Assembly (NCBI RefSeq): GCF_003339815.1
Contig: NZ_PPTT01000003.1
Span: 1 to 64,000 of the forward strand
From: Eggerthella sinensis
GTDB lineage: Bacteria > Actinomycetota > Coriobacteriia > Coriobacteriales > Eggerthellaceae
Direction: 5' to 3'
Length of the DNA: 64,000 nucleotides
The translations under genes and the position numbers were made by a program. This document shows positions 4,820 through 45,762 of the stretch, piece after piece. The notes under the pieces were generated by a model. That model ran no database searches. It had not been told where the DNA came from and saw only the letters and a list, made by a program, of their open reading frames with translations. Each line of letters opens with the position of its first letter. The stretch's first letter is position 1.

Positions 4820-4855
4820 TGCGAGTGGGGCGAAGGGGTTCGATGGTGCGAGGCG

Positions 4856-25686: not shown

Positions 25687-25706
25687 GACGCGCGCAGCAT
25701 ACCTGA

Positions 25707-25723: not shown

Positions 25724-25763
25724 CGCCGAAACAGACGGGGTACGGCGGAAACACCCCTCGGCG
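25724..25763. terminator. hairpin between convergent LuxR 5 and NapH-like genes
   Basis: CGCCGA (25724-25729) pairs with TCGGCG (25758-25763). An inner GGGG/CCCC pairing lies within the loop. It lies directly before the stop of the minus-strand gene and probably terminates both convergent transcripts. Confidence 0.4.
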
Positions 25764-27397: not shown

Positions 27398-27426
27398 TCT
27401 GATCATCCCCTCAATCACAACCTTGG

Positions 27427-27442
27427 TGTTTCACGTGAAACA
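27427..27442. other. parS-like ParB-binding site 2
   Basis: An exact TGTTTCACGTGAAACA lies between the TorD-like gene stop and the NapG-like start. It is identical to the cores at 615 and 33070. The regular occurrence of this 16-mer makes ParB binding likely. Confidence 0.85.
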
Positions 27443-27463
27443 TGCGCCTCTCGGGCGAACGGA

Positions 27464-28141
27464 CTACGCCAGCACGTCGGACAACTCGGCGGCATCGGCG
27501 TTCAGGAAGCGCTCGGTGAACGCCGCCAAATCGAAGTAGAACCCGCCTTCGGCCGCCTTCCGCATGTCGGCCGCGAAGCGCTCGATCCAGTTCAGCAGGT
27601 GATCCTGCACGAATGCCAATTGGGCGCGCAGCTGACGCTCGGCGCCGTCCGCATCGCCCGCGCGCAGCGCCTCCACCGCACGACCACACAGCAGCGCCAT
27701 GAAGGCGAGCTCGACGGCCAGGTGATCCTCCGGCTCCTTGAATCCCGGGTTCTTCGCGAACCCAGCGCCGCGATACACGTTGAGCACCTCGCTGTAGGCG
27801 TCCTGCATCATGAGACCGCCCTCGCTCGTGTACACCGACTCGTAGGGGAAGGCCTTCTGCGCCGTGCGCGGCCCCATGCCGAAGAAAGCGCGGTCGAACA
27901 CGACGGCCAGCTGCTCGAGCTTGCCCTCGTCGCACGCGGCCAGGTCGGCTTGAAGGGCGGCGAACCCGTCGGCCAAGGCGGCATCGTCGGAAGACAGCGC
28001 GGCACCCTGCGAAAACGTCTCGGCGAACGCCGCGTCAATCTCAGTCTCGTAGCAACGCGACAGCAGCGCATACACGCGGCCGCGATTCTCGCAGAAATCG
28101 ATGAGGTTCTCAACGAGCTCCGCAGGCATGGTATCGGTCAT
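27464..28141 (-). CDS. TorD/DmsD-family molybdoenzyme chaperone (second copy)
   Basis: The 225-residue all-helical protein belongs to the TorD family, which binds the Tat signal of DMSO-reductase-type catalytic subunits and helps insert the cofactor before export. The family landmarks are PYESVYTSEGG and the E-P-x-D-H motif in EPEDHLAVELAFMALL. ATG 28141 follows AAGGAG. It lies downstream of the A-B-C reductase genes on the same strand but is separated by 240 bp with a 21-bp-arm hairpin, so it may be partly uncoupled from them. It is probably the cytoplasmic chaperone for the subunit encoded at 29837. Confidence 0.88.
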   Translation of the reverse strand: MTDTMPAELVENLIDFCENRGRVYALLSRCYETEIDAAFAETFSQGAALSSDDAALADGFAALQADLAACDEGKLEQLAVVFDRAFFGMGPRTAQKAFPYESVYTSEGGLMMQDAYSEVLNVYRGAGFAKNPGFKEPEDHLAVELAFMALLCGRAVEALRAGDADGAERQLRAQLAFVQDHLLNWIERFAADMRKAAEGGFYFDLAAFTERFLNADAAELSDVLA

Positions 28142-28221
28142 GATTGATCTCCTTGCGTCGTTCCTACTATGTGTGGCGCGCAGCGCCTTTCCCTTGGCGC
28201 GCCCGAATGCTCTCGGAGGGG

Positions 28222-28281
28222 TTCGGCGCTGCGCGCCGATCGAGGGATGCGCGGGTCGAACGATCGGCGCGCAGCGCCGAA
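28222..28281. repeat. long perfect inverted repeat in the operon gap
   Basis: The arms 28222-28242 and 28261-28281 are exact 21-bp reverse complements with an 18-nt loop. The arm core GGCGCGCAGCGCC occurs a third time near 28177. The 240-bp gap 28142-28381 has no recognisable gene. The hairpin could attenuate transcription or protect the upstream reductase mRNA. Confidence 0.6.
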
Positions 28282-28381
28282 ATCCACCGGCAAGCTCCCG
28301 GGCGCGCCATGGGGAGGTGGAGGGAGCGCACCGGCGCGCCCGGGAGAGGAAGGGGGCACCCGGGTAGAGCACCCCCCATCA

Positions 28382-29260
28382 TCAGTGGTAGATGAACTGC
28401 TCCACGCTTGTGCCTACGCCGTACATGATGATGCGTATCACCACGGCGCCGATGGCGGTGCAGGCGCAGGCGGCGAACAGGTACATCGCCAGCTGCTTCG
28501 GCTGCACGGTGCCGGAATCGCCGGCGCCCTTCGTGGACTGGACGCATGCCAGCGCGGTCAGGGCAACCGGAACCACGATGCCAATCACCACGACGCCGGC
28601 CCAGAACATAACGGCCATGTCGCCGGAGATCAGACGCTCGATGGAGCGCGTCGGAGCCTGGTAGGGCGCTACGGCGATCCAGATCACGTACGCCACGGTG
28701 GTGACGGCCATGATCAGGACGCCGGCCAGCGCCAGCTTCAGCGCGAACCCGCCTTCCTCAGCCGCGCGGCCCTTCAACAGCACGAGCCCGCACATCAGCG
28801 TCATGCCCAGCGCCAAACCGGCGCCCAGGAACATCAACGGCAGGGCGATGCTGTCCCACGCGGGACGAGCGGCGATCAGGTACGACGCGCCCGCCACGAA
28901 CGGCAGCACCAAGCCGATGACGCCGCCCAGCACGCCGGACACCTTCGACGCCGTGGGGTAGTCCTTCTTCGCCAAAACGAGGTAGATGAGCGCCACGATG
29001 CCCATGATGGCAACCACGAACAGCTCCTTGGACAGACCCGAACCCAGGTTGCCCAGCAGGTGCGTCGCACGCTCGGGATGCCCCATGTGCAGCACCGACA
29101 CGCACCCGCCCACGGCGAGGCAGATCAGCGCGATGAGCGCACCCGCAAACCGCACGTCGCGGAACTTGCCTCTCAGCTCGCCCACGGCCAGAAACACGAA
29201 CGAGCCCGAGGTGACGCCTAACAGCACGCTGAAAATCAGAAGCGGCCACTGAATTTCCAT
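28382..29260 (-). CDS. NrfD/DmsC-like membrane anchor subunit
   Basis: The 292-residue protein has eight or so hydrophobic helices and no cysteine clusters, consistent with the DmsC family. Landmarks are the N-terminal FLAVGELRGKF and the conserved LHMGHPERATHLLGN segment near the quinol site. It should anchor the exported reductase and 4Fe-4S subunit to the membrane and oxidise quinol. It starts 2 bp after the stop of the B subunit, so it is part of a tight A-B-C operon. Confidence 0.88.
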   Translation of the reverse strand: MEIQWPLLIFSVLLGVTSGSFVFLAVGELRGKFRDVRFAGALIALICLAVGGCVSVLHMGHPERATHLLGNLGSGLSKELFVVAIMGIVALIYLVLAKKDYPTASKVSGVLGGVIGLVLPFVAGASYLIAARPAWDSIALPLMFLGAGLALGMTLMCGLVLLKGRAAEEGGFALKLALAGVLIMAVTTVAYVIWIAVAPYQAPTRSIERLISGDMAVMFWAGVVVIGIVVPVALTALACVQSTKGAGDSGTVQPKQLAMYLFAACACTAIGAVVIRIIMYGVGTSVEQFIYH

Positions 29261-29262
29261 GG

Positions 29263-29835
29263 TTACTCATCTCCCTTCCAGGCGCACTTGTCCATGGCGT
29301 AGTCCACGCCCGGATGGTTCCCCACGTCCTTCAGCTTGTACGTCTTCTTCGCGGCGCGCAGCTTCGACACATCGGACTCGGGATCGTCCAGATCGCCGAA
29401 CTTGCGGGCCTGGCCGGGGCAGTGTCGCACGCACGCCGGCTTCTCGCCCTTGTCGATGAGGTGCGCGCACATCGTGCACTTCTCGATGACGCCCTTGTCC
29501 TTCGACTCGTCATAGGTACGCACGCCGTACGGGCAGGCCATAACGCAATACTGGCAGCCGATGCACTTCGAGTGGTCCACCAGCACCACGCCGTCGTCGC
29601 GCTGGTAGGACGCGCCCGTCGGGCACACGCTCACGCACTGCGGGTTGTCGCAATGCTGGCACGCAACCGGCAGGTAGTACATCTCGAGGTCCGGGTAGGT
29701 GCCGGAAGGACCCACCGTCAGCACCTTGTTGTAGAACGTTCCCAGACCCACGTTGTTCTCTTGCTTGCACACGACGGCGCAGGAGTGGCAGCCGATGCAG
29801 CTATCGAGGTCGATATCAATAATGTTGCGAGTCAT
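29263..29835 (-). CDS. DmsB-like 4Fe-4S electron-transfer subunit (with DmsC partner)
   Basis: The 190-residue protein has four cysteine groups typical of DmsB/NrfC proteins: CIGCHSCAVVC, CQHCDNPQCVSVCP, CIGCQYCVMACP, and CTMCAHLIDKGEKPACVRHCP. It should carry four 4Fe-4S clusters linking the anchor to the molybdenum subunit. It has no Tat signal, so export would be by hitch-hiking with the catalytic subunit. ATG 29835 overlaps the end of the catalytic subunit gene; a GTG at 29845-29847 is a less likely start. It sits between genes A and C of one operon. Confidence 0.9.
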   Translation of the reverse strand: MTRNIIDIDLDSCIGCHSCAVVCKQENNVGLGTFYNKVLTVGPSGTYPDLEMYYLPVACQHCDNPQCVSVCPTGASYQRDDGVVLVDHSKCIGCQYCVMACPYGVRTYDESKDKGVIEKCTMCAHLIDKGEKPACVRHCPGQARKFGDLDDPESDVSKLRAAKKTYKLKDVGNHPGVDYAMDKCAWKGDE

Positions 29836-29836
29836 G

Positions 29837-32752
29837 TTACTTCGCACCCCCCTTCGTCACCTGCGTGACGCCGTCCTGCTGATCGTCAGCGGCAAGCTGA
29901 TCGGCGGACAGCGGCAGGAATATCTTGAGGTCTTCCGAATTCATGCAGATGTTCTTCGGCGCACCGTCGTCGGCCTTGTACACCTTGCACAGGCCGCCGA
30001 AGTTGTCGGTGCCCACGGCGGGATCGTACGGGCCGTTGTTCTCGAACAGCACGTTGCAGTTCGAGTCGAACGCGCCGTGCAGGTCGTCGGTGGCCTCGCG
30101 CTCGGGGAACCACCAGTCGTGCTCGACGTGGATCATGCCCGGCTTGATGGCCTCGGTGAGGTTCGCGCGCTGCTTGATGCGGTCGACGTACGTCTCGATG
30201 TACACCCAATCATCCTGCTCGATGCCATGCTCGGCAGCGGTGGCGGGGTTGATGTCCATCGTCGGGAACATGTGCACCTCGCGCAGCCACGGGCTGTTGC
30301 GGTACTCCGTGTGGAAGAACGCGTGGGAGCGGCCGCCCGTGATGAGCGTGTACGGATACTCTTCCAGCAGGTCGGGGCGCGACAGCTTCGTGATAGGCGG
30401 CTCGATGTACACGGGCAGGGCGCCGTTTCCGTACAGCAGCAGGTCTTCCGACCACAGTTCCATCTTGCCGTTGTCGGACTGCGGATGCGGCGGGATCACC
30501 GTGCCGTCCGGCTTCTTCGCGCCGGGGAAGCGGTAGACCGAGCCCATCTTGTTGCCGCGGTACATGGTGTTGAAGCCGGGACGGAAGTCGCTCGTCTTGC
30601 GCATGAAGCCCGTCTCGTACTTCGGCGCGTTCTTCACCGTGGCCATCTCGACACCGGTCACGCTCACGCGCTCGCGGAATTCCTCGAAGTTCGCACAGCT
30701 CAACTGCGGAGGAAGCGTCTCGGGGCCCTTCACCATGTAGTCGAAGAACTCGTACTTGTCCTTCCAGTACATATCCACGTCCATGTACTTCGCGAACTCG
30801 AAGCAGATGTCCATGTCGTCGCGGCACTCGCCGAGCGGCTCGTGGAACGGCTGGCGAATGAGGTACGTGTGGCTGGTCGGGTAGCCGTGGCCGGAGTGCG
30901 CCCACTCCACGCGATCCACCTCGTTGGGGTGCGCGGCCGGCAGGATGATGTCGGCGAGCTCGCCCGAAGGGGTCATGTACAGGTCGACGTTCACGAAGAA
31001 GTCGAGGTTCTTGAAGCCTTCGACAATCTCGTGGCCGCCCTCGATGGAGAGGATGGGCTCGGACGTCTGCTGCCAGTATCCGTAGATCTGGAACGGGTCG
31101 CCCTTCGCCATGGCCTTCGTCGTGGCCGCGCCGAAGCCGCCCTGCTGGCCGTAGATAACCTGACCGCCGGAGTTCTGCTTCGTCTGTTTGAGCTCGCCGG
31201 TGGCGTCATCGGCCACAAGGATGTCCTGGTAGCCGGTGTTCTGGCACACGGACAGCTGCTTGATGTTCATGGCCGTTTCCTTGCGGCGCTGGCCCATGCG
31301 ACCCTGCTGGTTCGGCACGACGTCGAACATGAAGGAGTCGTAGCCGGTGGCGGGCTCGCGGCCGATGTTCTGGCCGCCCTTCGTGTCGAAGTTGCCGGCG
31401 AGCGCCATCATGATGGTGAACGCCTGCGAGATGCCGGACGTGTTGATGGAGAACTCCACCTTCTGGCCGCGCGTGAAGCACGCGTGCGGGCTCGCATCGA
31501 TGTAGGCGTTGATGGCTTCCTTGATCTTGTCTTCGGGAAGCTCGCAGAACTCGGCGGCGCGCTCGATGGTCCACGGCGTGACGTGCTCGACGAGGATGTC
31601 CCAGCTCGTGCGGTAGGTCTTGCCGTTGATCTCATGGCTGCCGGACAGCGCGGGCTTCGCGTCGGCAACGATGTTGCCTTCGGCGTCGAGCCACTGGAAG
31701 GCCTTCGGGCCGCCCACGCCGTTCTTGTTCTGCCAGTCGCCGGACCAGAAGATCAGCTGGTCGCTGTTCTCGTCCCACGCGGCGTACAGCTCTTCGTTGC
31801 CGTCCTCCTTGAGGTAGGACTCGCGCAGCTGGTAGCCCGTGCCGTTGCCGTCGGCGTCCTTCTCGTCGATGAAGAACGGGGCATTGGTGTAGGTGCGCGC
31901 GAACTCGGTGGCGCACTTGTCGGACTTGATGATTTCGTTGATGAACGCCAGCACGAGCGCCATGTCGGAGCCGGGACGGATGGGCAGCCACACGTCGGCC
32001 TTGGAAGCCGTGCAGGTGAAACGCGGATCGACGCAGATCACCTTCGCGCCGCGCTCCTGCGCGCGCTTGACGGTGAGCCAGTCGTAGTAGCCGCGGCTGC
32101 GCTCCTGGCGGCACCAGATGAGGATGCAGTCCGTGTTGTTGCCGTCCCAGCCGGTGTACTGCGTCTCGTCGCCGTACAGACGCTGGCTGGAGAAGTACGA
32201 GCCCACCCAGCACAGGTTGCCCACGCCGAACGTGGCCGTGGAACCCAGCTCGAGCCACAGCTTGTTGATGGCCTGGAACTGCAGCATGTCGCGGCCCGTG
32301 CCGTACTGGTGCGCGATGGTGTGCCAGCCGTGTTCCTCGCCGATCTTCGTGAACTCGTCGCGCGCGGTCTCGTAGGCTTCCTCCCACGTGATGCGCTTCC
32401 ACTGGCCGGAACCCTTCTCGCCCACGCGCTTCTGCGGATAGCGCACGCGCAGCGGGTTGTACAACTCCTGCGGGATGGCGAAGCAGCGCCCGCACAACGT
32501 GCCCTCGCTGAACAGGTCGGGGTTGCCCTCGATCTTCACGAGACGGCCGTCCTTGACGTGTCCGAACAGCGCGCAGCGGCCGTAGCACTGGCGGCACGCA
32601 CTGGGGATAATCTTCACGTCGTCGGACGAGGTGCTGGTGGCCGCCGCGTCATCGGCGAGAGCCGGGGTGGCCGACGCGCCGAGCAGCAGCGTCGAAGCGG
32701 TCGCAACGGCCGAAGCCTTCACGAAGCCTCGGCGGCTCATCTTTAGTGACAT
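29837..32752 (-). CDS. exported molybdopterin oxidoreductase, probable Cys metal ligand
   Basis: The 971-residue catalytic subunit belongs to the DMSO reductase family. It has a Tat signal (MSRRGFVKA, residues 5-13) with a cleavable ALA site near 33. The N-terminal 4Fe-4S cluster uses Cys53, Cys56, Cys60 and Cys87. At the metal-ligand position the sequence reads GNLCWVGS (Cys181), like the LCMAS of periplasmic nitrate reductases, so Cys probably binds Mo or W. LPAAHPNEVD and ITGGRSHAFFH are cofactor segments. The ATG at 32752 has AGGAGG 4 nt upstream. The substrate is unknown. Eggerthella catechol dehydroxylases belong to this superfamily, but no specific assignment is justified. Confidence 0.9.
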   Translation of the reverse strand: MSLKMSRRGFVKASAVATASTLLLGASATPALADDAAATSTSSDDVKIIPSACRQCYGRCALFGHVKDGRLVKIEGNPDLFSEGTLCGRCFAIPQELYNPLRVRYPQKRVGEKGSGQWKRITWEEAYETARDEFTKIGEEHGWHTIAHQYGTGRDMLQFQAINKLWLELGSTATFGVGNLCWVGSYFSSQRLYGDETQYTGWDGNNTDCILIWCRQERSRGYYDWLTVKRAQERGAKVICVDPRFTCTASKADVWLPIRPGSDMALVLAFINEIIKSDKCATEFARTYTNAPFFIDEKDADGNGTGYQLRESYLKEDGNEELYAAWDENSDQLIFWSGDWQNKNGVGGPKAFQWLDAEGNIVADAKPALSGSHEINGKTYRTSWDILVEHVTPWTIERAAEFCELPEDKIKEAINAYIDASPHACFTRGQKVEFSINTSGISQAFTIMMALAGNFDTKGGQNIGREPATGYDSFMFDVVPNQQGRMGQRRKETAMNIKQLSVCQNTGYQDILVADDATGELKQTKQNSGGQVIYGQQGGFGAATTKAMAKGDPFQIYGYWQQTSEPILSIEGGHEIVEGFKNLDFFVNVDLYMTPSGELADIILPAAHPNEVDRVEWAHSGHGYPTSHTYLIRQPFHEPLGECRDDMDICFEFAKYMDVDMYWKDKYEFFDYMVKGPETLPPQLSCANFEEFRERVSVTGVEMATVKNAPKYETGFMRKTSDFRPGFNTMYRGNKMGSVYRFPGAKKPDGTVIPPHPQSDNGKMELWSEDLLLYGNGALPVYIEPPITKLSRPDLLEEYPYTLITGGRSHAFFHTEYRNSPWLREVHMFPTMDINPATAAEHGIEQDDWVYIETYVDRIKQRANLTEAIKPGMIHVEHDWWFPEREATDDLHGAFDSNCNVLFENNGPYDPAVGTDNFGGLCKVYKADDGAPKNICMNSEDLKIFLPLSADQLAADDQQDGVTQVTKGGAK

Positions 32753-32881
32753 CTCTCCTCCTTTTGCCTCGTCTGCATGCAGGGGACAGAGATGTGGATG
32801 GAATGCGACCCAAGATACCCCCCTGGTGACGCTCCCCCGTGCAAGCTCCCCGCTCTCGTTCCCCCGTTACTTGCAGTGCTA

Positions 32882-32909
32882 ACTATATCACCTGATAATA
32901 TTAGGGCAA
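32882..32909 (-). promoter_or_regulatory. promoter of the A-B-C molybdoenzyme operon
   Basis: On the minus strand TTGCCC (-35, 32904-32909), a 16-bp spacer and TATAGT (-10, 32882-32887) form a good promoter in an unusually AT-rich stretch (about 32870-32940). CCTGATAATATTAGG (32891-32905), a near-palindrome in the spacer, is a likely regulator site. An AAGATATCTT palindrome lies at 32917-32926. The 360-bp gap 32753-33112 also holds a 17-bp repeat and a parS site, and no gene. Confidence 0.5.
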
Positions 32910-32993
32910 CTATTTTAAGATATCTTTATAAAGAATAGTCGTGAACACGGAAGAGGGGCCGAGTTAGCCGCGGTGCACACGGGAAGAGGGAGT

Positions 32994-33010
32994 TGTCATC
33001 CTGAGCGGAG
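32994..33010. repeat. dispersed 17-bp repeat, copy 2
   Basis: This is an exact second copy of TGTCATCCTGAGCGGAG (first at 25707-25723). Here it continues into GGCCGCAGGCCGAAG, which forms a small hairpin. Confidence 0.5.
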
Positions 33011-33069
33011 GCCGCAGGCCGAAGTCGAAGGATCCCGTGCGGCGTCAGCGTACGAGGAACCCGTACGAA

Positions 33070-33085
33070 TGTTTCACGTGAAACA
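33070..33085. other. parS-like ParB-binding site 3
   Basis: A third exact TGTTTCACGTGAAACA lies between the histidine kinase stop at 33113 and the promoter region of the molybdoenzyme operon. Confidence 0.85.
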
Positions 33086-33112
33086 TCGGGATGGAAGAAG
33101 CGGTCGCTGCCC

Positions 33113-34399
33113 CTAGCGGGCGTCGAAGGTGATGCGGATGGTGGTGCCTTGGGCGGGTTCGCTGGCGATGTCCATGACGGCGTTGTGGCGGTCGACGATC
33201 CACTGAGCAATGGGCAGGCCGAGGCCCGTGCCCTCGGGGTTCATGCTGCGCGCCGATCCCGAGCGGTAGAAGCGCTGGAACGCCATGCTGATGTCGTCGG
33301 CCGACATGCCGATGCCGGTGTCGCGCACCTCCACGACCACCTTCCCCTTCGCCGCGCTGCTCAGGCCCACGTGCACGCTGCCGCCTTCGCCGGTGTACAG
33401 CAACGCGTTCTCCACGAGGATGGTGAACAGCTCTTCGATGCGCTCGGGGTCGCCCACGATGCGCGTGCCCGGCTCGATGGCGGTCTGCAGGCGAATGCCC
33501 CGATCGCGCGCGATCTGCGACACGTCCTCGCACACCCGCGCAAGCGTCGCGCTCAGCGCCACGTCCTCATAGACGATCTCGTCGCCGTCCGCGTCGGCGC
33601 GCGCCATGGTGAGCAGGGCCGACAGCACGGTGTTCATCTTCTCGGTGCTGTGGAACACAGCTTCGAGCCCCGCCTGCTCCTCCTCCACCGTGTGCTCGGG
33701 GTGGCGCATGATCATCTCGACGTTCGCCTTCGCCACGGCAAGCGGGTTCTTCAGCTTGTGCGACGCGTCTGCCGCGAACTGGCGCTGCTTGCGCCATGCC
33801 TCGTTGATGGGCACGATGGAGCGCTGCGCCATGCGGTAGCTCATGGGCACGATGATGGCCAAGCTCAGCAGCAGGCACAGCGCGCTGGCCAGGCGCAGCT
33901 CGTTCTGCATGGCGATATCGCCCGAGATGTCGCGGAACAGGATGATGTCGTGCGTGTTGTAGTGCCGGTCGCCCTCCTGGATGGAGAAGTCGCCTGCAGC
34001 GCGATGCACGCGGTAGTACTGGCCGTTCACGATTTCGGTGGTGTCGCCTTCGCCCAGGTCGCGGGACAACAGCTCGTCGATGTCGGCTTCCACGATCTGA
34101 CTCACGGGATGCGGGTTGAGGTACTCCCCCGTCTCCGTCTCGAAGTAGATGATGGGCAGCAGCGAGGTGGACAGGCCGTAGGAATGGTTCTCGGCCGACT
34201 GGTGCTCGTCCACGAACGCCTCCACCTGGTAGGCCGAGCGCGCGTCGATGTGCCAGTAGCTGAACACGGTGGCCCACACGTTCAGCACGATCACGAACAC
34301 GGCGAACAGCGAGAACATGGTGACGAAATTCGACAGCGCGAACCGTCGCGCAATCTTCTTGGACAGCGCGCCCGCCGTGTACACCTGCTGGCTTCGCAT
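33113..34399 (-). CDS. membrane sensor histidine kinase
   Basis: The 428-residue kinase has a first transmembrane helix (~24-47), an extracytoplasmic sensor of about 120 residues, a second helix (~168-190), an H-box DASHKLKNPLAV (His214), an N-box VENALLY, and G-boxes DTGIGM and GTGLGLP. Lys replaces the more usual Glu-Leu after the His (SHKLKNPL), a variant known in other kinases. It is the last gene of the dmsAB-torD-kinase-regulator-kinase series, 3 bp after the response regulator. It presumably phosphorylates that regulator and senses an external signal linked to the reductase substrate. Confidence 0.9.
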   Translation of the reverse strand: MRSQQVYTAGALSKKIARRFALSNFVTMFSLFAVFVIVLNVWATVFSYWHIDARSAYQVEAFVDEHQSAENHSYGLSTSLLPIIYFETETGEYLNPHPVSQIVEADIDELLSRDLGEGDTTEIVNGQYYRVHRAAGDFSIQEGDRHYNTHDIILFRDISGDIAMQNELRLASALCLLLSLAIIVPMSYRMAQRSIVPINEAWRKQRQFAADASHKLKNPLAVAKANVEMIMRHPEHTVEEEQAGLEAVFHSTEKMNTVLSALLTMARADADGDEIVYEDVALSATLARVCEDVSQIARDRGIRLQTAIEPGTRIVGDPERIEELFTILVENALLYTGEGGSVHVGLSSAAKGKVVVEVRDTGIGMSADDISMAFQRFYRSGSARSMNPEGTGLGLPIAQWIVDRHNAVMDIASEPAQGTTIRITFDAR

Positions 34400-34402
34400 G
34401 GC

Positions 34403-35107
34403 CTATACCTCGTCGCAGAACTTGTAGCCGACCCTCCAGACGGTCAGCAGGTAGCGCGGCGTCGACGGGTTGTCCTCGATTTTCTCGCGAATCTTGCGGA
34501 CGAACACGGTGATGCTGCGCAGGTCGGTGTCGCTGCTCTGGCCCCAGATATGCTCGAGGATCTGCTCGCGCGTGAACACCTTGCCCGGCGACGACGCCAG
34601 CAGCGCCACGATCTCGAACTCCTTGGACGTGAGGTCCACCGCCTTGCCGCGCACGCGCACCTCGTAGCTGTCGAGCAGCACTTCCACATCGCCGATGGCG
34701 ATGCGCGAGGCGGGCTCGGCCTGCGGCGCCTCGGCCGCACGCTCGTTGTCGTAGCGGCGCAGCAGCGCGCCGATGCGCAGCGACAGCTCCACGGGGCTGA
34801 ACGGTTTCACCAGGTAATCGTCGGCACCCGCCTTGAACCCGACGCTCTTGTCAACGATATCGCCCTTCGCGGACAGGAACAGCACCGGCACTTTGCTGCC
34901 GCGCTTGCGCAGCTCGCTGCACGCGTCGAAGCCGTTGAGCTCGGGCATCATCACATCGAGGATGACGAGGTCGGGATGCTCGGCCTCGTAGAGCGCGAGC
35001 GCCTCGCTGCCCGTGCCCGCGCAGCAGAAATCGTAGCCGTCTTCCACGACGATACGCTCGATGACCTGGCGCAACCCCTCGTCGTCATCGGCCAGCATGA
35101 TGTTCAT
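34403..35107 (-). CDS. OmpR-family response regulator
   Basis: The 234-residue regulator has a receiver domain with the acidic pocket (ADDDE, residues 6-10), phosphorylation site Asp51 (LVILDVMMPELNGF) and Lys in DDYLVKPFSP. A linker (~120-135) leads to a winged-helix DNA-binding domain ending in RSITVFVRKIREKIEDNP and TVWRVGYKF. ATG 35107 overlaps the stop of the upstream kinase by 4 bp; an upstream extension is out of family. It is flanked on both sides by kinase genes and probably controls the adjacent molybdoenzyme operons. Confidence 0.92.
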   Translation of the reverse strand: MNIMLADDDEGLRQVIERIVVEDGYDFCCAGTGSEALALYEAEHPDLVILDVMMPELNGFDACSELRKRGSKVPVLFLSAKGDIVDKSVGFKAGADDYLVKPFSPVELSLRIGALLRRYDNERAAEAPQAEPASRIAIGDVEVLLDSYEVRVRGKAVDLTSKEFEIVALLASSPGKVFTREQILEHIWGQSSDTDLRSITVFVRKIREKIEDNPSTPRYLLTVWRVGYKFCDEV

Positions 35108-35826
35108 ACGATCCCCCGTTCGCTCGGCGCGGACGTCGGCAACGCGATGGTGAACGAACTCCCCGCGCCCAGCGTGCTGTCCACGCGCACCGTGCCGCCG
35201 TGCATGGCGACGAACTCCCGCGCCACGGCCAACCCCAGGCCGCATCCCCCGAAGCTGCGCGCGACGGAATCGTCCACCTGCGCGTAGCGCTCGAACACGG
35301 CCGCCTGGTCCTCTTCGGCAATGCCTATCCCATTATCGTCGATCCGCAGGTGCACGGCACTATCGTTTTTCCGATGGAAGGCGTGCACCACCACAAGGCC
35401 GCCGCGCGGCGTGAACTTCAGCGCGTTGTCCACGAGGTTCTCGAGCGCGCGGCGCAGCTTGTCGGGGTCGGCCTCCACGAAGGGCACGCCGGGAGCCACG
35501 AAACTCACCAGCTCGATGGCGCGCTCGTCGGCGCGCGGGCGCATGTGCGCGTCCACCTCGCACACCACATCCACCAAATCGACGAGCTCGACGGACAGCG
35601 CCGCCTTGCCGCTGTCCAGGTACATGACGTCCAGCACGTTGTCCAACGTGTCGGACAGGCGCGACGCGCTGGCCGCCACCTCGGTCCAGGCAGCGCGCTG
35701 CTGCGCCGACATGCCAACGCCTTCACGGAGGGACACGTCGGCGAAGGCGAGGATGGAGCTGAGCGGGGTGCGCAGCTCGTGGCTCACCCCGTCGAGAAAC
35801 CCCAGGTATTGCGTGTGGCTCGTCAT
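35104..35826 (-). CDS. short cytoplasmic histidine kinase
   Basis: The 240-residue protein is a bare kinase core. H-box FLDGVSHELRTPLSS has His16, the N-box is ENLVDNALKFTP, and the G-boxes are DDNGIGI and GGCGLGLA. No sensor domain or membrane helix precedes it. The ATG at 35826 begins 4 bp after the TorD gene stop, so translation is probably coupled. A start at 35868 would overlap torD by 38 bp and adds no domain. It may take its input through another protein. Partnership with the membrane kinase at 33113 is possible because both flank one regulator. Confidence 0.85.
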   Translation of the reverse strand: MTSHTQYLGFLDGVSHELRTPLSSILAFADVSLREGVGMSAQQRAAWTEVAASASRLSDTLDNVLDVMYLDSGKAALSVELVDLVDVVCEVDAHMRPRADERAIELVSFVAPGVPFVEADPDKLRRALENLVDNALKFTPRGGLVVVHAFHRKNDSAVHLRIDDNGIGIAEEDQAAVFERYAQVDDSVARSFGGCGLGLAVAREFVAMHGGTVRVDSTLGAGSSFTIALPTSAPSERGIV

Positions 35827-35830
35827 GCGC

Positions 35831-36577
35831 TCAGCCAACGAGCAGCCGGTCGATCGTCCGGCGGTCAACCGCGCAGAACGCCGCAGCCATGCGGCCGGCC
35901 GCCGGGTACACCCCCGTGGCTTCGTGCTCGCTCAAGCGCGTGGCGAACGCGTCGACCCAGCGCAACAGGTGCTCGTCGAGGAACGCCGCCTGCGCACGCA
36001 GCAGGGCTTCGCCGTCACTGGCGGCGGGCGCGGCGGCCTCGTCGCTGGCGGCAGCATCGCCCTGCGCGTCGCGCTCGGCGCGCTCGTCGCACGTTTCGTT
36101 CAGCGCGACGACCGAGCCCGCCAACGCAGCCATGAAGTTCAGCTCGATGGCCAGGTGATCGTCTGCCACGTGCGGATACGAGGCGGGAAGGTAGCCCGCC
36201 TCGCGGTAGGCGCGCCGCACCGCGAGCGTGCTTTTCTGGAACAGCAGGGGATCGGGGTTCACGTACACCGACTCCCACGGGGGCGCCGGCAGCGCGGCCG
36301 GCCCCACGAACAGCCGGGTGTACGTGCCCGCAAGCTGGTCGCACGCCGCCTCGGGCGACGACGTGTTGGGAAGCGCGCCGCCAAAGGCCGACACCGCTTC
36401 GGCAAGCGCCTCGTCGAGCGAGGCGGCATACGCCAGCTGTTGGGCGACGTTCTCGTCGCGCAGGAGGCCCATGAGCCCCACCGTCGGATCGTCGCCGAAC
36501 AGCCTTCCGAGGAGGGTGTACATGAAGTGCCTATGAGGGAGGGAGAAGGCAGGGTCGAACGTTTCGGCAGTGCTCAT
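35831..36577 (-). CDS. TorD/DmsD-family molybdoenzyme chaperone (first copy)
   Basis: The 248-residue helical chaperone has the family signatures TRLFVGPAALPAPPWESVY and DDHLAIELNFMA. An Ala/Asp/Glu-rich low-complexity stretch (~165-190) interrupts the C-terminal half. It should bind the Tat signal of the catalytic subunit encoded at 37185 and delay export until cofactor insertion. ATG 36577 follows AGGAG. It is the third gene of the operon, after the A and B subunits and a small hairpin. Confidence 0.9.
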   Translation of the reverse strand: MSTAETFDPAFSLPHRHFMYTLLGRLFGDDPTVGLMGLLRDENVAQQLAYAASLDEALAEAVSAFGGALPNTSSPEAACDQLAGTYTRLFVGPAALPAPPWESVYVNPDPLLFQKSTLAVRRAYREAGYLPASYPHVADDHLAIELNFMAALAGSVVALNETCDERAERDAQGDAAASDEAAAPAASDGEALLRAQAAFLDEHLLRWVDAFATRLSEHEATGVYPAAGRMAAAFCAVDRRTIDRLLVG

Positions 36578-36592
36578 GGGATGCTCCTATCC

Positions 36593-36617
36593 GCGGCCCG
36601 GTGGGAAGCCGGGCCGC
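36593..36617 (-). terminator. intra-operon hairpin
   Basis: A perfect 9-bp GC stem (36593-36601 with 36609-36617) with a 7-nt loop lies between the B subunit stop and the TorD start. It has no T-run. It may attenuate transcription so that the chaperone and kinases are made at lower level than the reductase. Confidence 0.45.
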
Positions 36618-36629
36618 TTGCGTGCGTGG

Positions 36630-37181
36630 TTACGCCGTCACCGCGTGGGGATCGGGATTCAAAACAAGCGACGGGTTCGTCTCGGAGGACGCGGGCAGCA
36701 CCGTGATGTCGGCCGTGCCGCCGTACTGCTTCCGCAGCTCTTCGACGTCGCCGAACTTGAGGGCCCGCATGAGGCAGGCGGCAACGCAGGCCGGCTCTTC
36801 GCCGGCGGCGAGCAGCTCCTTGCAGCCGTCGCACTTGCCGCACTTCTTCTCCTCTTCCAAGTAGTCGGGCGCGCCGTACGGACACGACATCATGCAGGTT
36901 TTGCACCCGATGCACTTGTCGTGATCCTGGACGACCAGGCCGTTCTCGTCCTTCGCGATGGCGCCCTGCGGACAGTTCGCCATGCACAGCGGCTTCTCGC
37001 AGTGGTTGCACCCCAAAGACAGGTGGTAGAACCACGGCTCGGGGAACGCGCCGCCGTCGAAGCGCTGCACTTCGCGGAACAGGGTGTTCACGCCCAAATC
37101 GTTCTTGTCGTTGCACGCGATCTGGCACGTCTTGCATCCCGTGCAAATCGTCATATCGTAGTAAAAGCCCAACTGCGTCAT
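36630..37181 (-). CDS. DmsB-like 4Fe-4S electron-transfer subunit (no anchor partner)
   Basis: The 183-residue protein has four cysteine groups: CTGCKTCQIAC, CNHCEKPLCMANCP, CIGCKTCMMSCP and CGKCDGCKELLAAGEEPACVAAC. It begins 3 bp after the catalytic subunit stop. It should shuttle electrons to the molybdenum subunit. Unlike the other operon, no NrfD/DmsC anchor gene follows, so electrons must come from another membrane protein or a cytochrome encoded elsewhere. Confidence 0.9.
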   Translation of the reverse strand: MTQLGFYYDMTICTGCKTCQIACNDKNDLGVNTLFREVQRFDGGAFPEPWFYHLSLGCNHCEKPLCMANCPQGAIAKDENGLVVQDHDKCIGCKTCMMSCPYGAPDYLEEEKKCGKCDGCKELLAAGEEPACVAACLMRALKFGDVEELRKQYGGTADITVLPASSETNPSLVLNPDPHAVTA

Positions 37182-37184
37182 GGT

Positions 37185-39818
37185 TTACTTCCCTTCCTCT
37201 GCGAAGAAAATGCGCTGCGGCCACGTGTAGTCGGCCTCGAGCGTGCCGTTGTACTTCTCGATGCGCACGTTGCAGCTGTTGAAGCCCGAATGGCCCTCGC
37301 CCGTGGGGTTCTGGCCGGTCAGCGTGTTGGTGGCGCCGGCACGGTCGTTGCCGTCCTCGTCGAATTCCATCCACGCGCCCTCGCCCAGCAAACACGCGCC
37401 GGGACGCATGCGCTCGGTGGCGTACACGGGGCGCAGCACGGTGCCGTGACGGCTGGTCACCTTCGCGATGTCTCCGTCGGCGATGCCCAGCTCGGCCGCG
37501 TCGGAGGCGTTCATCCAGAACTCCTGCGCGAACGCGCGGCGCAGCCAGGGGACGTTGTCCAGGTTCGAGTGCGCGCGGCGCTGATAGTGGAAGTTGGCCA
37601 GCTGGAACGGATAGCCGTCGGCGATGCCCGCCTCGTAGCCCTCCACCGGCGGCTCGTAGTACGGATGCGCGTGCTTCGTGGAGAAGCCGATGCCCTCGAT
37701 CTTCTCGGCCAGGCTCTCGCAGTAGATCTCGAACTTGCCGGACTTCGTGTTGAGCGGGTGCGCTTCGGGGTCGGCGATGTAGTCCTCGAACGCGGTGAAC
37801 TCGAACTTGTCGTTCTCCTTGCGCGGGAACTGGTACACGCCATCGGCCAGGAACTGGTCGTACTCGACGCGGCCCGTCTGCGGCTCGCCCTGCACGCCCA
37901 GCTCGTCGATCTTCTCCTGGGTGATGGTGACGAGCGGCTCGTACTTCGTGCCGTCGTCGGTGCACACCTTCGTGCCGGCCACCGAGTCGAAGAAGCGCTG
38001 CGCCATGGACTTCGGCTCCACCTCTTCCTCGTTCGCACCCAGGCCCTTGCCAATTTGGCGCGCGATCCAGAAGTCGTCCTTCGCCTCGTACAGCGGCTCG
38101 CAGATGCGCGAGTACACGATGGCGATTTCGCGGTTGCCGTAGTCCACGCCGCCGTCCTGCTCCCACTTCGTGGTGACGGGCAGCACGAGGTCGGAGTACT
38201 TGGCATCGGTGGTGAGGTCGTAGTACTGCGCCATGACGAACTCCACCGCGCGGTGCGCCTCGATGCCCATGCCGCCCGAGCCGAGGTTCTGGCTGAGCGT
38301 GGCGCCGTCGCCGCCGTGGATGATAGCCTTCACGGTGATGGGCTTCGTCTCGCCGTTGTCGAGGTACTCGCCGTCCAGGATGGCGCGCCACATGTTGCCG
38401 TTGTTCAGGCGCGTCTTGCAAGCGTTGTCCATCTTGCGGCCGATGCCGTCGGTGCCGCATTCCACGAGGCGCGGGCCGCCGTTGCCGGAGTACTTGTGCA
38501 TGGTGGGCGCCACGCCGCCGGCCGGGTTGCCCATGTTGCCGCTCATCATGGCCAACGTGAGGATGGCGTGCGCGTAGTCCTCGCCGCAGTTCGTGCGGGC
38601 GGGCGCGCCGCCGGACACGATGGCGCACGACTTCGCCGTGGCGTACTGGCGGGCGAATTCGCGGATGACGTCGGGCTCGACGCCGCAGATTTCGCTGGCC
38701 CACTCGGGTGTCTTCGGCGTGCCGTCGTAGGTGCCCAGCAGGTAGTCCTTGAAGTTGTCCTGCGGGTCGGCGCCTTCGGGCATATGCTCCGCGTCGAAGC
38801 CGATGCAGTACTTGTCGAGGTACTCCTGCTTATGCAGGCCCTCGTCGAGCATCGTGTACATCATGCCGAAGATGAGCGTGATGTCGGTGCTGGGACGACA
38901 GGGAATCCACTGCGCGTCGAAGATGCGCGCGCTGTCGGAGTAGATGGGGTCGACGCAGATGAACTTCGCGCCGGCCTTCTTGGCCTGCAGGTAGTTGTAC
39001 GGGGGGTTGCCGCCGCCCGACACGGCCGGGTTGCAGCCCCACAGCACGATGAGCTCGGACTTGCGCAGGCGAATGCGGTCGTTGCCGTCGTTCGCGCCGG
39101 TGCGCTCGTGGCCCGAGTAGTTCTTCGCGCTCGACGGACGCTGCTCGAAGATATTCGGCGAGTTGGGCTCGCCGCTGTCGTCGCCCGCCACGAAGGCGTA
39201 CGTCTCGGTCCAGCCGCCCCACGAATACTGGCCCCATCGCGGGGTGAATCCGCCGCTCAGCGCGAGGGCGCGCTGGATTTCCTTGCCGCTCGGGCTGAAC
39301 ACGGCCTCGGGGCCGTACGCCTCGCGAATGCGCTTGATCTCGCTGACGGCGATGTCGATGGCCTCGTCCCAGCTGATGCGCTCCCACTCGTCGATGCCGC
39401 GCAGGTGGCCGTTGATTTCCTTACCGCCCGGCTGCCAGCTCTTGCGCTTCATGGGGTAGCGCAGGCGGTCGGCGCCGAACACCTGATGGCGCTGCGAATG
39501 CCCGCGAGCGCACGCGCGCTGCTGCGGGAAGTCGGGATCGTCGTCGGGGTGCGTGTCGTCCGTCTTCTGACGCACCACCACGCCGTCCTGCACGAGCACC
39601 TTGTTGACGCAGCGGCCGCCGCAGTTGTGCCAGCAGGCCGCCGACTTCCACTCGCCCTCGGTCAGCGAGCTGGCGAACGCTTCGTCCGTCTCCTCGGTCT
39701 TCTTGACCGCCGTCTCGCATCCGGCCAACGTCCCGCTCAAGGCGATGGCTGCGGTGGCGGCGGCGCTCGCCTTCACGAACCCGCGACGACTCAACGCCGT
39801 CGTTGCCTTCGATTCCAT
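37185..39818 (-). CDS. exported DMSO-reductase-like catalytic subunit, probable Ser ligand
   Basis: The 877-residue molybdopterin oxidoreductase has a Tat motif (SRRGFVKA, residues 10-17) and a lipobox (TLAGC, Cys34). The N-terminal 4Fe-4S cluster uses Cys62, Cys66, Cys70 and Cys103. GQYSWGGWTE (Ser199) aligns with the GDYSTGA motif of DMSO and TMAO reductases, so Ser probably binds Mo. VLWGCNPAVS, LPVTTKWEQDGG and a terminal NPTGEGHSGFNSCNVRI are further cofactor segments. ATG 39818 follows AGGGGGAG. It heads the operon containing the B subunit, TorD, two kinases and a regulator. It is probably an S- or N-oxide reductase, though the exact substrate is unknown. Confidence 0.9.
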   Translation of the reverse strand: MESKATTALSRRGFVKASAAATAAIALSGTLAGCETAVKKTEETDEAFASSLTEGEWKSAACWHNCGGRCVNKVLVQDGVVVRQKTDDTHPDDDPDFPQQRACARGHSQRHQVFGADRLRYPMKRKSWQPGGKEINGHLRGIDEWERISWDEAIDIAVSEIKRIREAYGPEAVFSPSGKEIQRALALSGGFTPRWGQYSWGGWTETYAFVAGDDSGEPNSPNIFEQRPSSAKNYSGHERTGANDGNDRIRLRKSELIVLWGCNPAVSGGGNPPYNYLQAKKAGAKFICVDPIYSDSARIFDAQWIPCRPSTDITLIFGMMYTMLDEGLHKQEYLDKYCIGFDAEHMPEGADPQDNFKDYLLGTYDGTPKTPEWASEICGVEPDVIREFARQYATAKSCAIVSGGAPARTNCGEDYAHAILTLAMMSGNMGNPAGGVAPTMHKYSGNGGPRLVECGTDGIGRKMDNACKTRLNNGNMWRAILDGEYLDNGETKPITVKAIIHGGDGATLSQNLGSGGMGIEAHRAVEFVMAQYYDLTTDAKYSDLVLPVTTKWEQDGGVDYGNREIAIVYSRICEPLYEAKDDFWIARQIGKGLGANEEEVEPKSMAQRFFDSVAGTKVCTDDGTKYEPLVTITQEKIDELGVQGEPQTGRVEYDQFLADGVYQFPRKENDKFEFTAFEDYIADPEAHPLNTKSGKFEIYCESLAEKIEGIGFSTKHAHPYYEPPVEGYEAGIADGYPFQLANFHYQRRAHSNLDNVPWLRRAFAQEFWMNASDAAELGIADGDIAKVTSRHGTVLRPVYATERMRPGACLLGEGAWMEFDEDGNDRAGATNTLTGQNPTGEGHSGFNSCNVRIEKYNGTLEADYTWPQRIFFAEEGK

Positions 39819-40043
39819 TGCGCTCCCCCTTCGTTCTCGTCTACGCACGACCTTCGTCGCGCTGACCCCATACTAAAGAGCGCGGAAACTAATAACGATG
39901 CAGCCGATATTCAGTTATTGCAGAGAGTTTGTTTCTGAATTATTACCGGGAAACACACCGGTTTACGAGGGGAAACACCAGCGTGCAGGTGTGCTTTCGC
40001 CAACCCGGCGGCGTGGTTTTTGGGCGCGCACGGCGCAAAGACG

Positions 40044-40072
40044 TTGACGGATTATTGCCGGATGTGATTAAT
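40044..40072 (+). promoter_or_regulatory. promoter upstream of the MarR-family gene
   Basis: TTGACG (40044-40049), a 17-bp spacer and ATTAAT (40067-40072) form a plausible promoter for the gene at 40119. The 300-bp divergent region 39819-40118 holds no gene. A direct repeat ATTATTRCCGG occurs at about 39939-39949 and 40051-40061, the second inside the promoter spacer. It could be a site through which MarR controls itself and the reductase operon. Confidence 0.45.
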
Positions 40073-40118
40073 TGAGGGGGTAATCCGAACCCGCGCGATA
40101 AGCCGGAAGCAGGCCACC

Positions 40119-40562
40119 ATGATCAACCAGCATAATAATCTTATCGGCTTTCTTGTGTACGACGCCCAACGCGCCATATCGAAATCGCTTGAAACCGCCC
40201 TGAAGCCCTACGGCGTCACGCCGGGCCAGTGGAACCTCATCAATCAGCTCGACCAAGCGGGCGAGCTTTCGCAGAAGCAGCTTGCCGAACTGACGCGCAA
40301 GGAGCAAGCCACTATCACGCGCTACCTCGACACGCTCGAGCGCAAGGAGCTTGTGGTGCGCAACCAGCACAAATCGGATCGCCGCGCGCACGTCATCTCG
40401 GTCACCGACAAGGCGCGCGAGTTGGTGGCCGCCGTGCAGCCTATCACCGTCGACGCGGCCGACCGCCTGATCGAGGGCATCGACCAGGCGGATATCGACA
40501 CGTTCGTCACGGTGCTCGCGAAGCTCAAAGAGAACGCGGACAACTACGCGAGCACCGACTAG
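40119..40562 (+). CDS. MarR-family transcriptional regulator
   Basis: The 147-residue winged-helix protein has the MarR fold: YGVTPGQWNLINQL, then LSQKQLAELTRKEQATITRYLDTLERKELV (recognition helix) and the wing R[N]QHKSDRRAHVISVTDKA. The family acts as dimeric repressors or activators responding to small phenolic ligands or oxidants. It diverges from the reductase operon starting at 39818 and is its likely regulator, or one of several given the two-component genes there. ATG 40119 has a weak AGG site. The ligand is unknown. Confidence 0.9.
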   Translation: MINQHNNLIGFLVYDAQRAISKSLETALKPYGVTPGQWNLINQLDQAGELSQKQLAELTRKEQATITRYLDTLERKELVVRNQHKSDRRAHVISVTDKARELVAAVQPITVDAADRLIEGIDQADIDTFVTVLAKLKENADNYASTD

Positions 40563-40565
40563 CAC

Positions 40566-43500
40566 CTAGTCGCGACGGGCGCAGCGGCGCGCCACCACCA
40601 CGGCCGTCACCAGCGCACCCGCCGCCACCACGCCAAGGGCTCCCAGCACAGCCGCGAGCGGGAAGGCGTCACCCGTACGGGCAATCGACGCAGGCGACGA
40701 CGAGCTGGGCTTGTAGGTTGACGAAGGCGTACTCGGGTTGGACGGGTCCGTCGGGTTCGTGGGGTCGGTGGGGTCCGTCGGATCGACCGGATCCACCGGG
40801 TCAGGCGGCACGGGCGCGTTCTTCATCGTGAGCTCGACCTGCGCAGGCTGCCCCACCGCCACCTCGAACGCCACCGGCGTCTCGTCGAGCACGTAGCCCT
40901 CGGGGGCGGCCGTCTCCACGAAGCGGTAGTCGCCCACGGCGAGGCCGTCCACCTTGACGATGCCGTCGGCCCCGGTCGTCAGCGCCTCGAAGCCCGGCAC
41001 GGTTGCCCAGGTGCCGTCGGCCAGTCGCTGTTCCAGCTTGAACGTCGCGCCGGCGAGCACCGTCGTCGGCTTGTCGGCGTCCACCTTCGTCAGGATGGCG
41101 CCGCCCAGCACCGGCGTTTTCGCGTTCGTGGCCGTCACCGCCGCCGCGAGGTTGGGCGTGTCGGCCGTGAGCTCGAACGGGAAGGGCTCGCTGGCCAGCT
41201 CGTAGCTTTCAGGGGCTTCCAGCTCGACGAAGCGGTACGCGCCCAGGGGCAGGTCGCGCACCTCGATCTTGCCGTCGCCGTCGGAAGTCAGGCGCTCGGA
41301 GCCCTCGACCGCGGCCCAGGAGCCGTCGGCCTGCTGGGCTTCCAACTTGAACACGGCGCCCGGCAGCAGGACCGACGCGTCGTCGGCGTCCACCTTCGAG
41401 AGCGCTACGCTGCCCACGGGCGGGACCTTCTCGTTGGTCGCCGTGACGCTCACCACGACGGGCGCGGGGGCGGCCGCGTCGATGGCGAACTCTCGCGGCG
41501 TCTCGTCGAGCACGTAGCCCTCGGGGGCCGCCGTCTCGACGAAGCGGTAGTCGCCCACCGGCAGATCGGCGACCTCGACCGCGCCCTGCCCGTCCGTCGT
41601 CAGAGCCTCGTTGCCCGGCACGGTCGCCCAGCTGTCGTCGGCCAAACGCTGTTCCAGCTTGAACACGGCGCCGGGAAGCTTCACCGTCGCGTCGTCGGCG
41701 TCCACCTTCGTCAGCACCGCCTTCCCGAGCACCGGGCTCTTCGCGTTCGTGGCCGTCACCGCCACAGCGAGCCCCGGCGTGTCCTCGGCCAGCGCGAACT
41801 CCACCGGCTGCGTTTCCAGCTCGTATCCCTCGGGGGCTTCCAGCTCGACGAAGCGGTACGACCCCAGGGGCAGGTCGGCGACCTCGATCTTGCCGTCGCC
41901 GTCGGTGGTCAGGCGCTCGGAGCCCGCCACCGTCTCCCAGGAGCCGTCGGCCTGCTGCGCCTCGAGCTTGAACACGGCGCCCGGCAGCAGGACCGACGCG
42001 TCGTCGGCGTCGACCTTCGTCAGCGCGACGCCGCCCACGGGCGGGACCTTGGCGTTCTCCGCCGTGAGGTTCACCACGACAGGCGCCGGAGCGGCCGCGT
42101 CGATCGAGAACTCGCGCGGCGTCTCGTCGAGCACGTAGCCCTCGGGGGCCGCCGTCTCGACGAAGCGGTAGTCGCCCACGGCGAGGCCGTCCACCTTGGC
42201 GATACCGTCGGCCCCGGTCGTCAGCGCCTCGAAGCCCGGCACGGTTGCCCAGGTGCCGTCGGCCAGGCGCTGTTCCAGCTTGAACGTCGCGCCGGCGAGC
42301 ACCGTCGTCGGCTTGTCGGCGTCCACCTTCGTCAGGATGGCGCCGCCCAGCACCGGCGTTTTCGCGTTCGTGGCCGTCACCGCCGCCGCGAGGTTGGGCG
42401 TGTCGGCCGTGAGCTCGAACGGGAAGGGCTCGGTGGCCAGCTCGTAGCTTTCAGGGGCTTCCAGCTCGACGAAGCGGTACGACCCCAGGGGCAGGTCGCG
42501 CACCTCGATCTTGCCGTCGCCGTCGGTGGTCAGGCGCTCGGAGCCCGCCACCGTCTCCCAGGAGCCGTCGACCTGCTGGGCTTCCAACTTGAACACGGCG
42601 CCCGGCAGCAGGACCGACGCGTCGTCGGCGTCCACCTTCGTCAGCACGACGCTGCCCACGGGCGGGACCTTGGCGTTCTCCGCCGTGAGGTTCACCACGA
42701 CGGGCGCCGGAGCGGCCGCGTCGATCGAGAACTCTCGTGGCGTCTCGTCGAGCACGTAGCCCTCGGGGGCGGCCGTCTCCACGAAGCGGTAGTCGCCCAC
42801 CGGCAGGTCGGCGACCTCGACGATGCCGTCGGCCCCGGTCGTCAGCGCCTCGAAGCCCGGCACGGTTGCCCAGGTGCCGTCGGCCAGGCGCTGTTCCAGC
42901 TTGAACGTCGCGCCCGGCAGCTTCACCGTCGCGTCGTCGGCGTCGACCTTCGTCAGCACCGCCTTGCCGAGCACCGGGCTCTTCACGTTGAGCGCGGTCA
43001 CCGCCACCGCGAGCCCCGGCGTGTCCTCGGCCAGCGAGAACTCCACCGGCTCGGTCTCGAGCTCGTACCCCTCGGGAGCCTCGAGCTCGACGAAGCGGTA
43101 CGACCCCAGGGGCAGGTCGGCCACCTCGATCTTGCCGTTCTCGTCCGTGGTCAGGCGCTCGGAGCCCTCGACCGCGGCCCAGGAGCCGTCGGCCTGCCGG
43201 GCCTCGAGCTTGAACACGGCGCCGGGGAGCTTCACGTCCTGGTCGTCGGCGTCCACCTTCGTCAGCGCGACGCCGCCCACGGGCGGGACCTTCTCGTTGG
43301 TCGCCGTGACGCTCACCACGATAGGCGCCGGAGCGGCCGCGTCGATCGAGAACTCGCGCGGCGTCTCGTCGAGCACGTATCCCTCGGGGGCGGCCGTCTC
43401 CACGAAGCGGTAGTCGCCCACCGGCAGGTCGGCCACCTCGACCGCGCCCTGCCCGTCCGTCGTCAGAGCCCCGTTGCCCGGCACGGTCGCCCAGGTATCG

Positions 43501-45602: not shown

Positions 45603-45733
45603 GCTAAACCTCCTTATAGGGGGATATCTCTGCACTGACTTTTCAAGGTACGCGAACGTCCCGCCGACCCCTGCCTCATCACCGCGTCGGTTCCCCTCCC
45701 GTATCGCCCCCGTCATGCGGCCGTTGTCGACTT

Positions 45734-45762
45734 TGATCATCCGTTGATTTCGCAAATGTCAA
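45734..45762 (-). promoter_or_regulatory. possible promoter of the adhesin gene
   Basis: On the minus strand a consensus TTGACA (45757-45762) is followed after 17 bp by TGATCA (45734-45739), a weak -10. CCGTTGT and ACAACGG flank the region as an inverted repeat (45721-45727 and 45763-45769). The promoter may need an activator. Confidence 0.35.

Follow-up and report, generated by a model that had tools for sequence, protein, structure and literature searches.

The closest described counterparts of the operon considered here, six genes on the minus strand of Eggerthella sinensis contig NZ_PPTT01000003.1, are reductase operons on the one hand and two-component systems on the other. The window we analysed is the whole 64,000-nucleotide stretch at positions 1 to 64,000 of that contig (assembly GCF_003339815.1). 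Like the DmsABC and YnfEFGH operons for dimethyl sulfoxide (DMSO)/selenate reductases, the operon encodes a DmsA/YnfE-like catalytic subunit (here MoA), a DmsB-type iron-sulfur subunit (FeS) and a TorD/DmsD-type chaperone; unlike them, it lacks a DmsC anchor, carries a twin-arginine translocation (Tat) lipobox on the catalytic subunit and has a dedicated two-component system. Its OmpR-type regulator beside a molybdenum (Mo) reductase recalls TorS/TorR control of torCAD, but TorS is a kinase/response-regulator hybrid by model name, and the shorter of the two kinases here, HKshort, scores 147.4 of the required 676.5 bits. The HKshort core and the regulator fall instead in a clade of sCache_heme kinases (DUF3365/Tll0287-like, PF11845; PMC12889525) and their regulators, although HKshort is without sensor, transmembrane segments, HAMP and heme site, and a distant second sensor kinase, HK2, has been added in the operon. 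The sections of PMC12889525 drawn on here describe DUF3365 as a c-heme Cache domain with nitric oxide (NO)-sensor properties when fused to signalling modules, and list Actinomycetota among the groups where it is rare or absent; the main text, searched by word, contains neither Eggerthella nor reductase.

We read the operon, from its sequence, as an input-replaced variant of a known module, and the explanation that we tentatively favour is a sensorless kinase and a signal-dependent phosphatase acting on one regulator. A sharing of kinase and phosphatase roles between two proteins that act on one regulator, as proposed here, is also a feature of RetS-GacS multikinase networks. The same likeness extends to the split kinases CheA3/CheA4, which are split in another way in the parts of PMC3591291 consulted: HKshort and HK2 each have HisKA and HATPase_c, making two complete DHp-CA cores, so that ATP binding and phosphotransfer are not divided between them. 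Unlike in either of these systems, one core here is sensorless and the other has an altered residue directly after the phospho-histidine (H+1). In a partial survey of the literature, judged by titles and abstract openings, we found nothing on this operon type, and a word search of PMC9734109 returned neither "two-component" nor "histidine kinase." The operon and the features discussed with it are as follows.

39932..39945, minus strand: putative operator of the response regulator, TAATAATTCAGAAA, pattern TWAKAATTYRGAAA, 114-128 bp upstream of the MoA ATG
37185..39818, minus strand: MoA, molybdopterin oxidoreductase, DmsA/YnfE-like, 877 aa from ATG (PF00384 6.7e-32, PF01568)
36630..37181, minus strand: FeS, 4Fe-4S electron-transfer subunit, DmsB type (TIGR02951, PF13247)
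36578..36629, minus strand: FeS-torD gap of 52 bp with a perfect 9-bp G+C stem-loop (fold -24.1 kcal/mol, z -1.3)
35831..36577, minus strand: TorD/DmsD-type chaperone (PF02613 1.5e-31)
35104..35826, minus strand: HKshort, sensorless kinase core (DHp + CA), 240 aa, H16-E17-x-x-T20 (PF00512, PF02518)
34403..35107, minus strand: OmpR-type response regulator (PF00072 + PF00486)
33113..34399, minus strand: HK2, membrane sensor kinase, 428 residues (PF00512, PF02518 only)
28382..32752, minus strand: downstream operon, MoA_ds, FeS and NrfD/DmsC-like anchor (promoter-like site at 32909-32882)

The original prediction had described this gene order on one strand, with close spacing, a 4-bp kinase-regulator overlap, and a soluble 240-residue kinase core without a sensor and a full membrane kinase on either side of the regulator, and the sequence bears it out on each of these points. 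The genes run MoA, FeS, TorD, HKshort, response regulator, HK2, with gaps of 3 nt (MoA-FeS), 52 nt (FeS-TorD), 4 nt without overlap (TorD-HKshort) and 3 nt (regulator-HK2) and an ATGA overlap between HKshort and the regulator; one kinase is cytosolic and the other has an extracytoplasmic domain. The order from MoA through FeS, TorD and kinase to regulator is repeated at three further loci in the genome (C22, C31 and C34) and is thus not due to chance. No promoter-like site was found on the minus strand within 33113-39818, the one at 32909-32882 lying ahead of the downstream operon, and terminator-like matches in 25000-41000 were at chance level (10 vs 9.2 expected). G+C-rich stem-loops were seen in all eight gaps folded between FeS and torD or kinase (36578-36629 in the window, and L057, L059, L060, L079, L082, L083 and L084), several with a CCTCC-type loop and with z-scores from -0.6 to -3.6; it is possible that these predicted hairpins serve mRNA processing or attenuation ahead of the regulatory genes.

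HKshort very probably derives from a heme-sensor kinase. Its domains are HisKA and HATPase_c alone, with 15 residues ahead of the His and, by eye, no hydrophobic stretch. Its eight closest relatives in the same genome are 36-45% identical over the core, each match being the C-terminal part of a longer kinase, and all five that were tested against Pfam contain PF11845 (Tll0287-like, formerly DUF3365), HAMP, HisKA and HATPase_c. The genome has eight PF11845 domains, all in frames of 511-647 aa that match the eight long kinases, and the 14 control genomes have none. In a tree of 43 kinase cores, HKshort lies inside the heme-sensor kinase clade (23 rows, support 96/97). CxxCH occurs within the same open reading frame (ORF) in 19 of the 22 other rows of the clade; two of the remaining rows are truncated by contig ends, and the third is a split gene with CxxCH in the upstream ORF. 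For this tree, L022 was dropped for want of an H-box match to the search expression, which allowed only E, D, K, Q, S or N at H+1; the partial copies L007 and L110 and the sensor ORF of genome G133 were left out, L017 was added by hand, and the list never included L030, L035, L036, L038 and the C16 kinase. Since the alignment of HKshort with the heme kinases begins about 13-15 residues before the His, the sensor, membrane helices, HAMP and linker are gone, and because the 240-aa protein has neither a Tll0287-like domain nor CxxCH, we call it derived from the sCache_heme kinases rather than a member of them. A separate heme sensor acting in trans was ruled out, with all eight PF11845 domains inside long kinase frames, and misassembly as the source of sensor loss was judged unlikely given an ATG of its own, a diverged core and a 210-kb contig. 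In G133, an in-frame stop divides a heme-sensor kinase beside MoA-FeS and a regulator (L075, 8881-10650) into one ORF for the sensor and one for the core; this may be an equivalent separation or simply a damaged gene.

The position of HKshort after torD, which had been thought unusual, is not new; the unusual feature is the loss of the sensor. Seven of the eight full-length heme-sensor kinases in the genome adjoin Mo-reductase genes and three directly follow torD, so the adjacency was most likely inherited and predates sensor loss. The TorD-containing order is also found in other genomes at L082, L083 and L084. Other loci in the genome read MoA-FeS-kinase-regulator, or have the kinase and regulator ahead of MoA or pointing away from it, and the C1 heme-kinase locus adjoins a cytochrome c552-type gene. 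The idea of a frameshift fusion between TorD and HKshort was raised and set aside.

HKshort reads as a retained catalytic engine in which constraint elsewhere has been relaxed or changed. All 28 core columns that are invariant in 20 heme-kinase relatives are intact in it (in leave-one-out comparisons, the others have 0 to 4 changed), the H-E-x-x-T, N, G1, F and G2 boxes of HisKA kinases are present, and an AlphaFold2 model predicts a complete DHp-CA fold (mean pLDDT 84.9). When kinase identity was regressed on regulator identity over 190 pairs from 21 modules, HKshort was the kinase most over-diverged relative to its own regulator, with a mean residual of -9.6 points vs -4.2 for the next lowest. 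No HKshort orthologue at E <= 1e-60 was found in 4 genomes of the genus, with all candidates scored, or in 138 family genomes, where scoring was limited to 20 candidates in each; a scan of named genomes, which may omit the window's own genome and very near ones, returned eight distant kinases of 26-38% identity.

HK2 is a kinase of another sort, its core only 26% identical to that of HKshort. It has, by eye, two membrane helices, and an extracytoplasmic domain of about 110 residues without a Pfam match. Its AlphaFold2 model has a mean pLDDT of 74.3, and most of the 50 fold matches listed are to kinases, over some 230 aligned columns, which is the length of a kinase core, so that they are not informative on the sensor. 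The phosphorylation motif reads S213-H214-K215-L-K-N218-P, in which the position after the phospho-His is occupied by Lys, not by an acidic residue, and the Asn at H+4 is kept. Among 43 kinases preselected by an expression that permits only E, D, K, Q, S and N at this position, H+1 is E in 35, D in 5, Q in 1 and K in 2, the two being HK2 (SHKLKNP) and its homologue in the same-genus genome G001 (SHKLKTP); HK2 relatives in three genomes of other genera have Glu (SHELRNP). In several HisKA kinases, according to the parts of PMC3510030 consulted, substituting the acidic H+1 residue abolishes kinase activity without abolishing phosphatase activity, and the T/N at H+4 is, conversely, needed for phosphatase and not for kinase activity. 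HK2 relatives at E <= 1e-50 were found in four other genomes of the 138 (at most 12 candidates scored per genome). That in G001 (L053) lies beside a regulator 60% identical to the window regulator and a cytochrome c552-type gene; integrase-like and resolvase-like ORFs, identified by eye at 424-5123, adjoin this cluster, which suggests that it is mobile.

In the regulator tree, the window and G001 regulators fall in the heme-module regulator clade (100/100), and their being sisters was not rejected (p-AU 0.43). Several modules have in common an upstream sequence, TAATAATTCGGAAAGAT...TAAGAAA. The pattern TWAKAATTYRGAAA occurs without mismatch at just two places in the 4.0-Mb genome, before MoA of the C22 paralogue and before the window MoA, and with one mismatch at five further places (reversed-pattern control, 0). 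In 1,041,948 bases of loci, overlaps included, all eight matches at no more than one mismatch lie ahead of the likely start of heme-module MoA genes; at L075 and L079 the box is inside the mechanical ORF and upstream of the Tat-bearing start. Because seven of these eight promoters served to draw up the pattern by eye, the independent evidence consists of L075 and the absence of matches elsewhere. We consider that the regulator probably acts at the MoA promoter, a view in which our confidence is reduced because several sister modules lack the box: matches are partial before MoA of C31 (18/27) and C18a (17/27) and low before C34 (16/27), C13 (15/27) and C18b (14/27), so that it is common to some modules and not all.

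In the mechanism that we propose, the operon is one copy of a multiplied module composed of a Tat-lipoprotein DmsA-like reductase, a DmsB-like subunit, TorD, a kinase and an OmpR regulator, whose ancestral kinase lay in the membrane and sensed through a Cache domain with covalent c-heme. HKshort would phosphorylate the regulator with no external signal of its own, either constitutively or at a level set by expression through torD coupling, and HK2, kinase-poor and with the Asn of the phosphatase motif, would dephosphorylate it unless stopped by an external signal of its own. Phosphorylated regulator would then activate the operon at the upstream box. Since HKshort would act without an external signal and HK2 under its own, the heme/NO-type input would have been replaced by that of HK2, one protein now serving as kinase and the other as phosphatase. 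This division of duties between HKshort and HK2 is plausible, if somewhat short of probable. A stricter version is more doubtful, in which kinase and sensor are divided between two complete proteins, HKshort being a constitutive donor and HK2 a signal-gated phosphatase only, and the heme (NO/redox) input is swapped with regulator and operator unchanged.

Several observations weigh against this mechanism. The H+1 substitutions in the consulted parts of PMC3510030 are A, D, G and Q, with Lys not among them, and one of the 43 kinases has Gln at this position; HK2 could therefore have kept its kinase activity. The kinase tree does not resolve the two HK2s with Lys as sisters. In G001, no short kinase was seen next to the pair of HK2 and regulator, so the proposed complement of HKshort and HK2 is not conserved. 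The window box is weak against the longer seed (17/27, p about 0.017), and the low matches in C18b, C13 and C34 count here as well.

Alternatively, HKshort may be a relic that lost its sensor by deletion and is now decaying or idle, control of the regulator having passed to HK2, a bifunctional kinase of the ordinary sort. We regard this as unlikely, but early decay would also fit the over-divergence of HKshort from its regulator, its end branch of 1.39 (the longest in the heme-sensor kinase clade), the lack of a clear Shine-Dalgarno-like sequence and of orthologues in our searches, the G001 pair without a short kinase and the G133 relative, which an in-frame stop interrupts near the same position. 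Against decay stand the intact core columns, the complete predicted fold and the full 240-aa frame with its ATG and regular ATGA overlap to the regulator.

RetS controls GacS directly. HKshort and HK2 might likewise form mixed complexes in which HK2 directly controls HKshort; their genes flank one regulator, and RetS/GacS structures (7n0e, 7z8n and 6dk7) are among the fold matches of HKshort, as kinase cores generally are. With cores of such low identity, and judged from sequence only, this is improbable. Slightly less probable still is that the two-component system acts for the downstream NrfD-type operon, alone or together with the six-gene one. Three of the HK2 relatives (L054, L055 and L056, in three other genomes) do sit with homologues of MoA_ds and of the NrfD/DmsC-like, TorD and NapG-like genes, FeS being called in two, but the regulators beside them all belong outside the window regulator clade (33 and 35% identical for the two with figures), and an exact box precedes the upstream MoA whereas no operator-like box was found before MoA_ds (14/27, p about 0.32). 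It is very improbable that HKshort reads the state of the chaperone or senses TorD or apo-reductase load inside the cell, as the original prediction had it: the 4-nt gap makes translational coupling with torD probable, but the adjacency is most likely older than sensor loss, torD-adjacent relatives carry an extracytoplasmic-type sensor, and the 15 residues before the His leave no extra domain to bind TorD.

The reductase itself departs in part from the DmsABC type. MoA scores 496.3 bits against TIGR02166 (the DmsA/YnfE model), below the cut-off of 777.7, and FeS scores 214.4 bits against TIGR02951 (the DmsB-type model), just over the cut-off of 214.1. The NrfD/DmsC gene is indeed missing from the six-gene operon, the nearest match being the 28382 gene, 7.9 kb from MoA and in a separate operon, but this absence, which had raised the question of how electrons arrive, is the rule for these modules: none of the seven full-length heme-kinase modules linked to MoA in this genome has an NrfD/DmsC match within 2.5 kb. 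The signal peptide of MoA has a Tat motif, SRRGFVK, and a lipobox, LAGC (SGTLAGC), and that of MoA_ds, whose operon includes an anchor gene, has an AxA-type site. Across the genome (4.0 Mb, 75 contigs; 58 matches to PF00384, 37 to the TorD family, 30 to NrfD and 22 to DmsC), Tat-bearing MoA proteins with a lipobox number 8 with and 14 without an NrfD/DmsC match within 2.5 kb, and those without a lipobox 20 with and 4 without. The lipobox is thus associated with the lack of a nearby anchor gene (14/22 vs 4/24; Fisher p = 0.002), though the paralogues are not independent, 46 of 58 MoA rows were used (12 were dropped for an unrecognised Tat signal or a wrong ORF) and one lipobox assignment, C27:12768, is doubtful. 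On the basis of its own lipobox and of this association, MoA is likely anchored by a lipid tether. The anchor at 28382 might conceivably be shared with the six-gene operon, but it belongs to a complete operon of its own, with MoA, FeS, NrfD/DmsC-like, TorD and NapG/H-like genes. No MoA orthologues at E <= 1e-250 were found, with at most 6 candidates scored per genome. In the portion of PMC7028382 consulted, three catechol dehydroxylases of E. lenta have a Tat signal, a 4Fe-4S partner and a putative membrane anchor.

Elsewhere in the genome, three Mo-reductase matches contain an internal TGA: G000:C10:48968-50257 and C7:32783-34060, with one each and perhaps selenocysteine formate dehydrogenases, and C10:74263-74811. 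In the window, a divergent MarR-family gene at 40119-40562 adjoins the operon and is a possible second regulator. Beyond it, 40566-45755 encodes a 1729-aa protein with many near-identical repeats and a hydrophobic anchor at its C terminus, which by eye resembles a surface protein of the cell wall. The sequence TGTTTCACGTGAAACA, which we take to be the parS (ParB site) consensus, has three exact copies in the window (615-630, 27427-27442 and 33070-33085, the last of them between HK2 and the downstream operon), with none in shuffled sequence; given these parS-like copies, the window is possibly near a replication origin.

If our explanation is true, the operon would represent a natural replacement of input, in which a heme-sensor kinase has been cut back to its catalytic engine and a sensor kinase of foreign origin serves only as a brake, with regulator type and operator unchanged while the input was replaced. 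The operator motif, together with the definition of the module as a Tat-lipoprotein Mo reductase with a c-heme Cache kinase and an OmpR regulator, would be of value for the Eggerthellaceae, a family rich in Mo reductases of unknown substrate. It also places multiplied heme kinases, eight in one genome, in a lineage of the Actinomycetota, where the consulted sections of the preprint PMC12889525 call the domain rare or absent.

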